Shown in pieces: positions 2,794-44,542 of a DNA stretch of 44,542 bases. The translations under genes were made by a program, and so were the position numbers. Numbering within the stretch: the stretch's first letter is position 1; each line of letters opens with the position of its first letter. This DNA comes from Clostridia bacterium (GTDB lineage: Bacteria; Bacillota; Clostridia; Oscillospirales; Acutalibacteraceae), in assembly GCA_017436285.1 (NCBI GenBank), contig JAFSDL010000061.1, forward strand, positions 1-44,542, in the 5' to 3' direction. The notes under the pieces are model-generated. The model made no database searches, was not told where the DNA came from, and worked only from the letters and a program-made list of their open reading frames with translations.

Positions 2794-4265
2794 ATTTATA
2801 CTATATTAATCACAATTTCAGATACGAAGCAGAAAAGCTTTTAAGATTATTTTTCCCTCTTGAAAAAATAGTTGAATATACAGAATTTAACGAAACAAAT
2901 GAGGATTACCTTTTAACCCGTATTGACGGTGAGGAAAGCCTCACTCTTACTGCAGGGCTTTCTCTTAACGGTGAAGCTAAGAGTAAGATTAAAGAAATAA
3001 AAAAATCAGAATGTGATGATTTAGAGCTTGAGCTTTTGCTTTTAGCATACGATTTGCTTTGTGAAATGTGTGGCTTTACACCAAAATGGGGCATACTCAC
3101 AGGTGTGAGACCATCAAAGCTTATTGTGAAGCGCCTTTCTCAATATGGGGAAGAAAATGCAAGAGATTGGTTTCTTAATACCTATAAGGTGTCACCCGAA
3201 AAAACCGAGCTTGCAATTAATGTTGCAAAAACCGAGCTTAAAATTATTGAAAGGGCAGGGGAGAAATCCTTCAGCTTGTATATCAGCATCCCTTTTTGCC
3301 CCACAAGGTGTAGCTATTGCTCCTTTGTTTCTCATTCAATTAATTCCGAAAAGGCTAAAAGCCTTGTTACCGATTATATTGAAAAGCTAATAGATGAATT
3401 AACCTTTACTGCTCAGATAGCAAAGGAAAACGGCTTGCGTCTTACAAGCGTTTATTGGGGTGGTGGCACGCCCACGACCCTTTCAGAAAATGAGTTGGAC
3501 AGAATTTTAACTCATATTGAAAGCACCTTTGATTTGTCTGAGTGCCTTGAATATACAGTTGAGGCAGGCAGACCCGATACAATAACAAAAGAAAAGTTAG
3601 ATACTCTCAAAAAGCATAATGTGGGCAGAATAAGTATAAATCCACAGACCTTTTCAGACAGTGTTTTAAATGCTATCGGAAGAAAGCACACAACCGCACA
3701 AACAGAAGAAAAATTCCTCCTTGCAAAAGAGGTAGGGTTTGATGTAATTAATATGGATTTGATTGCAGGGCTTCCCACAGATACGGTTGAAGACTTTAAA
3801 AACAGCGTGAACAGAGCGATTGATTTAGGTGCAGATAATATAACAGTCCATACCTTAGCATTGAAGCGCTCTTCAAGTATTGTAACGGAAAATGAAAGCG
3901 ATTCTGTTACCGACAGAGATATATGGGAAATGCTTGCTTATGCAGGAAAAGCCCTTACAGAAAATGGTTATCATCCGTATTATATGTACCGCCAGAGCAA
4001 GTCCTTGGGTAATCTTGAGAATGTAGGTTGGTGCAAAAAAGGCAAGGAATGCTTTTACAATGTTCTGATGATGGAGGAATATCAAAGTATTTTCTCTGTT
4101 GGTGCAGGTGCAGTAACAAAGCTTCGAAGTGAGGACGGAAGCATAATTGAAAGAATATTCAATTTTAAATACCCCTTTGAATACATATCGAGATTTGATG
4201 AAATAATAGATAAAAAGGAACGAATGAAGAGTTTTTATAGTGAGGAGTTAGAAGTGAGAAGTTAG
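2790..4265 (+). CDS. hemZ: HemZ-type radical SAM coproporphyrinogen dehydrogenase-like protein
   Basis: This belongs to the HemN/HemZ radical SAM family, which carries out oxygen-independent oxidative decarboxylation of coproporphyrinogen III or related reactions. The N-terminal 165 residues are the HemZ-specific extension. The [4Fe-4S]-binding CxxxCxxC motif is C170, C174, C177, and the SAM-contacting GGGTP lies at about 225-229. At 491 residues it has normal length. ATGA overlap couples it to the MBL gene. No other heme genes are in view, so the true substrate is open. The last codons (ending EELEVRS) lie inside an array of 7-bp repeats, so the native C-terminus was probably replaced by a repeat insertion. 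hisS-aspS, which often follow hemZ, are absent. Confidence 0.93.
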   Translation: MNLYYINHNFRYEAEKLLRLFFPLEKIVEYTEFNETNEDYLLTRIDGEESLTLTAGLSLNGEAKSKIKEIKKSECDDLELELLLLAYDLLCEMCGFTPKWGILTGVRPSKLIVKRLSQYGEENARDWFLNTYKVSPEKTELAINVAKTELKIIERAGEKSFSLYISIPFCPTRCSYCSFVSHSINSEKAKSLVTDYIEKLIDELTFTAQIAKENGLRLTSVYWGGGTPTTLSENELDRILTHIESTFDLSECLEYTVEAGRPDTITKEKLDTLKKHNVGRISINPQTFSDSVLNAIGRKHTTAQTEEKFLLAKEVGFDVINMDLIAGLPTDTVEDFKNSVNRAIDLGADNITVHTLALKRSSSIVTENESDSVTDRDIWEMLAYAGKALTENGYHPYYMYRQSKSLGNLENVGWCKKGKECFYNVLMMEEYQSIFSVGAGAVTKLRSEDGSIIERIFNFKYPFEYISRFDEIIDKKERMKSFYSEELEVRS

Positions 4266-4443
4266 GAGTGTCGGGACCTGCGGTCGGCAATAATAAAACT
4301 CTGACTGCGGTTCTATCTTTCTGAATTTTTCACTCTAAGAAAAAGTAAATTGTGTAGAAAAAGTATTAGCTATCGAAGCTTTTATAATTATTGGAAGCAA
4401 CGCTTCCCCAACACTCCTCACTCCTCATTCCTCACTCCTAACT
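4239..4443. repeat. Palindromic element with 7-bp (AGTNNNN) repeats at both ends, copy 1
   Basis: The left end carries head-to-tail heptamers AGTGAGG, AGTTAGA, AGTGAGA, AGTTAGG and then AGTGTCGGG (4239-4275). The right end, read on the minus strand from 4443, carries AGTTAGG, AGTGAGG, AATGAGG, AGTGAGG and then AGTGTTGGGG. The two arrays form inverted termini of a 205-bp element. Next to the right array is a small hairpin, GGAAGC-AAC-GCTTCC (4393-4407), which recurs with another loop in the copy at 42814. The left array overlaps the end of hemZ and supplies its stop codon. No reading frame of note lies inside. Confidence 0.75.
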
Positions 4444-4497
4444 ATTTAACGAATAACTAAAATGTTGGGAAATAATATATTAATAGGCGGTGAAATG

Positions 4498-42813: not shown

Positions 42814-43074
42814 AGTTGAAAGTTGAAAATGGCAAGTGGCAAGTTTCGGGGAAGCTTCGCTTCCAAACATTATATACGCTTCGCAAAACGCAACAAACCG
42901 TAAGGTACAGGCTTGCCTGTACCACATAATATGTATAAGTCACCGGAATGTAGGGAACGGTCTTGAGTTCTGCAGTAGTGGGAAGTTGAAGGTGGCAAGT
43001 TAAGGGGCAAAGCCGATTATAATAGCCGTGCGCAGCACCCGAAACTTTCCAATTTCCACTTTCAATTTGCCACT
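42814..43074. repeat. Palindromic element with AGTNNNN heptamer arrays, copy 2
   Basis: Left array AGTTGAA, AGTTGAA, AATGGCA, AGTGGCA, AGTTTCG then GGG (42814-42851). Right array on the minus strand from 43074: AGTGGCA, AATTGAA, AGTGGAA, ATTGGAA, AGTTTCG then GGTG. A third array in direct orientation lies at 42977-43003 (AGTGGGA, AGTTGAA, GGTGGCA, AGTTAAG). Hairpins between: GGAAGC-TTC-GCTTCC (42850-42864) and a 20-base CTTG-loop hairpin (42904-42923). The 305 bases between the E2 gene and the VanZ-like gene are filled by the terminator and this element. Confidence 0.75.
42878..42926. repeat. 49-bp core shared with 44345-44393
   Basis: It matches 44345-44393 at 48 of 49 bases and includes the hairpin GGTACAGG-CTTG-CCTGTACC. 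A further shared block, AATGTAGGGAACGGTCTTG, lies at 42947-42965 and 44412-44430. Confidence 0.9.
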
Positions 43075-44212: not shown

Positions 44213-44241
44213 ATTTTATCATCTTTTTCAGGGGTTTGCAA
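44213..44241 (-). promoter_or_regulatory. Promoter of the nth operon
   Basis: On the minus strand TTGCAA (44241-44236), 17-bp spacer, TAAAAT (44218-44213) with a TGA extension before the -10. Confidence 0.78.
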
Positions 44242-44271
44242 TATAGAGTGTAAAATTACAAATCAGCTACC

Positions 44272-44542
44272 GGTCACCAGTCACCAGTCGCCAGTTGCCA
44301 GTCACCAGTCACCAGTCGCCAGTCGCCAGTCGCCAGTCGCCAGAGCTTCGCAAAACTCAACAAACCGTAAGGTACAGGCTTGCCTGTACCACAGAACAAT
44401 CTAACCAAGAACAATGTAGGGAACGGTCTTGTCGTTCCGTTGTAGTGGAAAGTTGAAAATGTCAAGTGGAAAGTTTCGGGGCGCAAAAATGCGCCGTCGA
44501 AGAACGTACGGGAGGGTCTTGACCCTCCCGTTGTTGTTTCCT
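44272..44542. repeat. Heptamer-array element, copy 3, running off the window
   Basis: Ten units of 7 bp (44272-44341): one GGTCACC, then AGTCACC, AGTCGCC or AGTTGCC. Then the 49-bp core (44345-44393), the GTAGGGAACGG block, a second array AGTGGAA, AGTTGAA, AATGTCA, AGTGGAA, AGTTTCG (44444-44478), hairpin GGCGCA-AAAA-TGCGCC (44480-44495), and a 10-bp stem with CTTG loop (44508-44531). No gene is visible in these 271 bases; open frames across the array are a by-product of the 7-bp period. Confidence 0.78.
44345..44393. repeat. 49-bp core shared with 42878-42926
   Basis: Second copy of the core, one mismatch, including the CTTG-loop hairpin. Confidence 0.9.

Follow-up and report, generated by a model that had tools for sequence, protein, structure and literature searches.

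The window analysed here, 44,542 nucleotides long, is the entire contig C59 of a Clostridia bacterium genome that comprises 2.05 Mb in 63 contigs and is 83.7% complete. Three loci within it carry tandem arrays of 7-bp units; the positions given in the original prediction were borne out when the sequence was re-read, with the addition of an inner partial array within element 2 that is possibly a second, nested left end (Table 1). Elements 1 and 2 are bounded, as predicted, by terminal arrays in inverted orientation, and the left array of element 2 is immediately preceded by the T-run of a terminator-like hairpin. The predicted likeness of units within a locus holds for three unit classes, AGTKRGG, AGTKGMA, and AGTYRCC, but the third locus is composite, consisting of an AGTYRCC array and GTAA/GTAG-tagged palindromes followed by the left end of an AGTKGMA element (element 4), which is truncated by the contig end so that any right end would fall outside.

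Table 1. Positions of heptamer arrays, hairpins, and associated palindromes in the window
Feature	Position	Strand	Description
Element 1, left terminal array	4239..4273	+	Five units: AGTGAGG AGTTAGA AGTGAGA AGTTAGG AGTGTCG
Element 1, left subterminal hairpin	4274..4289	+	GACC/GGTC stem, TGC loop
Element 1, core	4290..4392	.	No visible gene
Element 1, right subterminal hairpin	4393..4407	-	GGAAGC/GCTTCC stem
Element 1, right terminal array	4409..4443	-	Inverted; same unit class as left array
Element 2, left terminal array	42814..42848	+	AGTTGAA AGTTGAA AATGGCA AGTGGCA AGTTTCG
Element 2, left subterminal hairpin	42850..42864	+	GGAAGC-TTC-GCTTCC
Element 2, inner partial array	42977..43004	+	Followed by short hairpin GGGGC-AAA-GCC
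Element 2, right terminal array	43040..43074	-	Inverted
Element 3, array	44279..44341	+	Nine AGTYRCC units in tandem; one side only seen
Element 4, left terminal array	44444..44478	+	AGTGGAA AGTTGAA AATGTCA AGTGGAA AGTTTCG
Element 4, subterminal hairpin	44479..44496	+	GGCGCA-AAAA-TGCGCC
GTAA/GTAG/GTAC-tagged palindromes	42900-42923, 42950-42970, 44367-44390, 44416-44439, 44506-44529		

The predicted array ending, AGT(T/G)T(C/T)GGGG, was found in the K classes but not in AGTYRCC. In the K classes, an end typically runs through four free units and a fifth of the type AGTKTCG to two or three G, followed by a short hairpin and then ATTATAA; no match was obtained with a pattern that placed GGGG behind five free units. 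The suggestion that the hairpin stem is conserved while its loop changes requires amendment: pairing is kept while the stem sequence itself varies. Of the 31 distinct tails in the genome, 22 can pair perfectly over at least 4 bp, and five stem sequences are represented among them. The hairpin at 4393 is part of a right end, and the two ends of element 1 have different stems. Shuffled tails gave 1.5 such stems (maximum 5) and re-dealt 3′ parts gave 6.1 (maximum 12), versus the 22 observed. This tail-stem test, like the IVP tree, rRNA scan, Mantel, core-count, RVT_1, and 8-mer tests described below, was written post hoc and is exploratory.

REP-like palindromes tagged with GTAA, GTAG, or GTAC (GGTACAGGC-TT-GCCTGTACC, GGAACGGTCTTGTCGTTCC) are interspersed among the heptamer elements of the window, and similar ones occur at other loci of the same genome.

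Copies in the genome and empty sites in relatives

The original prediction, a family of small elements with heptamer arrays at their ends, called for further copies elsewhere in the genome, and these are present. Four AGT cores at period 7 gave 76 matches, partly overlapping, in the 2.05-Mb genome versus 5 for the reversed pattern, and five cores gave 31 versus 1, so that the arrays are far above chance. Under a strict pattern, 25 of 57 arrays in the genome are paired with an inverted array no more than 330 bp away, delimiting elements of 112-263 bp, and a same-orientation array follows within the same distance in five cases.

Sites that lack an element in relatives of the same genus were found as well, rather than occupation at identical places throughout. 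In G007, G009, G006, G008, and G018, five relatives, the gap that corresponds to element 1 is short, at about 10-45 bp, and the closest relative, G003, has a different insert there. After the gene preceding element 2, a stretch of 150-230 bp without such an array is present in G017, G008, G006, and G009, other heptamers in G007, and unrelated sequence in G003; these are not strict empty sites because the following gene is kept there only in G003. Three further sites (A, B, and C), all on contig C47, were compared. At site C, an element is present in the window's genome and G003, and the site is empty in G009, G007, G017, and G008 (two filled, four empty). Site A is empty in G017 and G007, holds a shorter element in G003, and has an IVP element nearby in G008. 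At site B, the two ends of the element in the window's genome differ in class; G003 has an identical left end and a different right end, G009 has a complete AGTKGMA element, G008 and G017 are empty, and G007 is ambiguous. The nearest relative often holds an element of another class in the identical gap (L072, sites A and B; window positions 4239-4443 and 44228-44542), a pattern not accounted for by simple insertion. Different classes in one gap would reflect either a preference for the target or an exchange of ends in place.

A separate observation concerns site A in G009 (L261, G009:C4:62000-63200), where just two to three heptamers (AGTGGCAAGTTGGAAGTT) are present, as though an element had left a remnant.

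IVP genes between heptamer arrays

Two elements in sister species have ends of the window type and contain an open reading frame between their paired arrays (L041, 554 bp; L060, 609 bp), and both proteins match PF05635 (23S_rRNA_IVP), the IVP/S23 family of 23S rRNA intervening sequences. Six IVP proteins compared with Pfam (L041, L060, L123, L366, L370, and L361) matched PF05635 only, apart from weaker matches to bAvd in three, and none of the six has a recognised catalytic domain. Wherever flanks were read, the gene between arrays is an IVP gene.

Within the genus, matches to PF05635 number 111 and come from 20 of the 22 genomes. For closer analysis, 107 stretches covering 110 of these were taken, one weak match in G011 being left out, and a custom profile applied to them delimited 111 non-identical IVP stretches, including fragments and extra tandem copies, the equality with 111 being coincidental. 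With 250-bp flanks (106 of 111 loci kept), period 7 was the best period upstream at 50 loci and downstream at 49; with 350-bp flanks (111 loci), it was best at 54 and 52. Common inverted 8-mers were present in 71 of 106 flank pairs and direct ones in 39 of 106. The number of IVP genes correlates with the number of AGT-array matches across the 22 genomes (rho 0.57, p 0.006).

The association extends well beyond the genus. One genome per species was scanned for 84,980 species with nine IVP query proteins, yielding at least 587 relatives, the best 80 of which were analysed; since these were found with heptamer-type queries, they are uninformative on IVPs overall. The best 80 loci span about 16 phylum-level groups, with the CPR candidate phyla counted as one, including Clostridia, Bacteroidota, Treponema, Chloroflexi, SAR324, Nitrospirae, Kiritimatiellae, Planctomycetes, and Thiohalocapsa, among others; three of the 80 appear identical to genus loci. 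When periods of 4-13 were compared in the best 80 of the at least 587, period 7 ranked first in 59 of 80 flanks upstream and 59 of 80 downstream, and period 8 in 12 and 8. With flanks shorter than 250 bp dropped, which kept 77 upstream and 76 downstream, period 7 led in 56 of each, versus 19/226 and 30/216 (49/442 together) in control windows 650-1400 bp away from the same loci. At least four inverted 8-mers were common to both flanks in 56 of 73 pairs from the best 80 loci, versus a mean of 7.0 and a maximum of 15 pairs when flank partners were swapped. The arrays are direct rather than inverted at some loci (13 of 73 pairs, and the plasmid locus L363).

A further 22 loci came from eight genomes, in which 30 of 63 matches gave loci and 8 of these 30 were omitted as already among the best 80. 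Period 7 was best in 15 upstream and 16 downstream flanks and period 8 in 5 and 5; the score reached at least 9 on both sides in 10, and inverted 8-mers were common to both flanks in 17 and direct ones in 7. Among plasmids, 29 records had an IVP match and 13 loci were tested, 12 of them cyanobacterial. Period 7 ranked first in both flanks of all 13, with a score of at least 9 on both sides in 12, and inverted 8-mers were shared in 12 of 13; sharing was more direct than inverted at L363, and L364 had little of either.

Two side observations concern placement. The genome of Aequorivita echinoideorum (G041, L337) has 21 IVP matches in 2.9 Mb, and six of these fall in a stretch of about 14 kb on contig C20. 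IVP elements lie between cas6 and cas4 in plasmids of Anabaena and Pseudanabaena (L361 and L363), a placement that may explain the IVP genes observed in cas loci (PMC3936711).

Comparison of Nostoc plasmids provided sites with gene-bearing, gene-less, and empty versions. A junction between two genes lying three bases apart (XY) is empty in five plasmids and holds an IVP element in three, including L378 with its shortened annotated IVP gene. One gene further on, the YZ junction holds a different IVP element in one plasmid, with an empty gap in seven. The site after the TraM gene has an IVP element in two plasmids, a gene-less version in one, two empty versions, and one ambiguous version; the gene-less version has a left junction identical to that of the gene-bearing one, and its left array is degenerate. 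No heptamers are present at the five empty XY sites, and the idea that IVP genes had entered heptamers already in place was rejected at XY and YZ, where empty versions are heptamer-free. A 3-bp duplication (CTA, ATG) may be present at each of two Nostoc sites, but no rule of target duplication can be drawn because target sequence is replaced at the third.

Unit sequence and unit number

In a tree of 93 of the 111 genus IVPs, clades have a common unit, such as AxTKGMA, AxTKAGG, AGTCGCC, AATGCGT, AATGCTG, or AATGCAR, and the three unit classes of the window's genome therefore correspond to three IVP clades of sister species. Across 34 genus elements, the Mantel rank correlation between protein and unit distance is 0.63 (0/2000 permutations); it is 0.43 within the 30-70% range (0/2000) and 0.60 in a partial test given the similarity of the spacer between array and gene (0/1000). 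In the wide set, the correlation is weak (0.144, 12/1000; middle range 0.113, 34/1000). The genus and wide comparisons drew on the 80 of 184 elements with arrays on both sides and excluded L280-L282 as taken to duplicate genus loci. This covariation may be the trace of a specific recogniser, with shared descent perhaps contributing in part.

The number of cores per array peaks at five, as seen in 48 of 77 genus, 37 of 86 wide-set, and 9 of 25 plasmid arrays (94 of 188 in total), under a rule that tolerates one missed unit and with 25 of 213 arrays omitted as having neither an AG nor an AAT core. In the window's genome, five cores are present in 39 of 57 arrays. Three pure units would already clear the score limit, which therefore does not account for the peak. 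A profile search retrieved two solved relatives, 2gsc (XCC0516) and 2rld, both of which contain five chains, and the title of the 2gsc paper, as cited in a reference list, refers to five four-helix bundles. The five-core peak and the five-chain structures together led to the proposal of a ring in which each subunit takes one heptamer, and a crystal with five chains is not proof of a functional pentamer.

The genome of the window has many arrays yet only two IVP matches (L138 and L208), neither flanked by heptamers. Both belong to a second IVP clade without heptamers, examined at 43 genus loci, and were rejected as direct parents of the window elements on account of this different clade. A heptamer-type IVP is absent from the assembled part of the genome and may lie in the missing 16% or have been lost. 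Loci of the second clade (L138, L208, and other genus loci) adjoin arrays of constant 8-mers (AATATCAC, GTGAAATA, ATGAAATC, AATGAAGT, ATATCGCA, and others) spaced by variable palindromes. At 37 of the 43 loci, a 450-bp flank contains four or more copies of an 8-mer, compared with 0 of 121 control windows, and the 8-mer seems to follow the protein clade.

Interpretation, alternatives, and known systems

Because the same ends surround IVP genes elsewhere, and IVP loci are conversely flanked by period-7 arrays, the window elements are read as gene-less IVP elements. On the sequence evidence, they are probably gene-less copies of very small mobile elements whose full-length kin encode an IVP/S23 protein that would bind the arrays as a ring. 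A full-length copy, of which the 554- and 609-bp elements are the best examples, carries a single gene for a four-helix-bundle protein of PF05635, and copies of both types share inverted terminal arrays of typically five 7-bp repeats, with a hairpin just inside in the AGTK classes. A pentameric IVP ring would bind each array with one heptamer per subunit and bring both ends of the element together, and this bridging would let host machinery move or keep the element along with gene-less copies of like unit. The family may in this way move by means of its own IVP protein. The original prediction of a small-element family thus stands, with inverted ends and empty sites in relatives, but the trans-acting partner is likely not a known transposase, as had been suggested, and is more plausibly the IVP/S23 protein encoded within full-length copies.

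A wider proposal is more tentative, being held with somewhat less than even confidence. It envisages a transposase-free class across bacteria in which an IVP pentamer would read exactly five heptamers per end through a coevolving unit code, the second clade would use 8-mers likewise, and the heptamers of cyanobacteria, Beggiatoaceae, and Xanthomonas, together with rRNA intervening sequences, would be traces of such elements.

Among the alternatives, ordinary MITEs deserve the most attention: a conventional transposase would act on the heptamer ends, with the IVP as a passenger or regulator. The gene-less copies do resemble MITEs in having the ends of gene-bearing ones, and the IVP proteins compared with Pfam offer no catalytic domain of their own. 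This reading is nevertheless unlikely, given that in the flanks read the gene found between the ends is an IVP gene and not a transposase gene, that unit sequence tracks IVP phylogeny, and that the Nostoc sites have no constant target duplication.

The arrays could instead be operators or leader sites through which IVP regulates itself or its neighbours, the whole unit being immobile. At some loci the upstream array does end just before the IVP start codon (a few bases before it in L370), and translational regulation was proposed for TAACTGA repeats by MacGregor in 2015 (PMC4679880). The inverted array downstream, the gene-less copies, and the heptamer-free empty sites make a purely regulatory role very improbable.

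REP/RAYT (TnpA-REP) systems combine many small intergenic hairpin copies with a protein partner, and mobilisation of the present elements by a Y1 HUH transposase of this or the IS200 type might be suspected from the GTAG/GTAA-tagged palindromes of the window, from the one Y1 gene in its genome, and from three in the array-rich G007. The likeness lies in the many small hairpin copies and the protein; here, however, the protein is of another family, the ends are tandem heptamers, and Y1 does not track the arrays, being matched in only 9 of the 22 genomes of the genus and in neither of the array-rich G009 and G003. The candidate was rejected on this distribution in the window's genome and the 22 genus genomes, and little credence can be given to it. 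The sole Y1 gene of the window's genome (L062:1941-2459, on G000:C21) encodes a protein of 172 amino acids with an IS200-like look and lies about 1.1 kb from a heptamer array, to which it is apparently unrelated.

Equally remote is a retroelement resembling diversity-generating retroelements (DGRs), with the IVP as Avd and a reverse transcriptase in trans. Avd is a remote relative of IVP, to judge from the bAvd matches and from PMC10053308, and the array-richest genome, G002, has one RVT_1 match. Such matches are confined, though, to 4 of the 22 genus genomes in which the present family was compared, leaving 18 without reverse transcriptase, and none occurs in the array-rich G000, G009, G007, and G018; a reverse transcriptase partner was rejected because its distribution does not follow the arrays.

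Independent microsatellites arising by polymerase slippage at each place, a process that the original prediction offered for within-array homogeneity and that has been conjectured in print to underlie an excess of heptamers (PMC4692102), would fit some long arrays (at least 12 cores in 8 of 188) but can be virtually dismissed in view of the same-unit inverted partner across the gene, the five-unit peak, the common hairpins, and the empty sites. For that homogeneity itself, the Mantel and five-core data suggest that a unit-specific recogniser fits better than slippage alone.

The closest known system is that of rRNA intervening sequences, which the IVP elements resemble in small size, in terminal inverted repeats forming a long stem, and in a single IVP/S23 open reading frame. 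That gene is present in the six elements whose proteins were compared with Pfam, the window copies being gene-less, and a long terminal stem is present in the RNA fold of 4233-4449 (element 1, the one element folded; -71.6 kcal/mol, z -6.7). The present elements differ in that they were not found in rRNA, that heptamer arrays are usual at both ends with a unit that varies by element, and that gene-less copies are plentiful in the window's genome. No rRNA passed the Rfam gathering threshold around 20 heptamer-poor loci scanned among the best 80 of at least 587; plasmid IVP elements sit between annotated protein genes, and the window elements adjoin open reading frames as read. The Coxiella intervening sequence is described as having GACAGAT heptamers and a 28-bp terminal stem cleaved by RNase III (PMC4990558). 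A 2024 paper on rRNA insertions terms IVP functionally uncharacterized (PMC11270868).

The window elements also recall repeats known in their own right. Tandem heptamers of cyanobacteria are named STRR, and tandem intergenic heptamers are found both in the window's genome and at cyanobacterial plasmid IVP loci. The likeness noted in the original prediction is real but is not a mere parallel, as period-7 arrays flank the IVP gene on either side at all 12 of the cyanobacterial plasmid loci tested. Published units include GGGGACT in Nostoc and GGGNATC in Xanthomonas, the latter mostly in four units with some inverted pairs, and that source describes heptamers as generally without a link to mobile elements (PMC4692102); TAACTGA repeats are described in Beggiatoaceae (PMC4679880). 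All are alike in being tandem and intergenic, and on the other strand GGGGACT reads AGTCCCC and TAACTGA reads AGTTATC. Whereas the published heptamers are regarded as of unexplained origin or as possible regulatory sites, the arrays here are tied to the ends of IVP elements. No paper tying IVP genes in general to heptamer arrays was found in the literature covered, which excluded bioRxiv preprints and most subscription papers.

If this interpretation is true, heptamers known from separate reports on cyanobacteria, Beggiatoaceae, Xanthomonas, and Coxiella would have a common origin, and the widespread IVP family would have a job. It would also offer a hint at the source of rRNA intervening sequences, and would represent movement of DNA without a recognised transposase.
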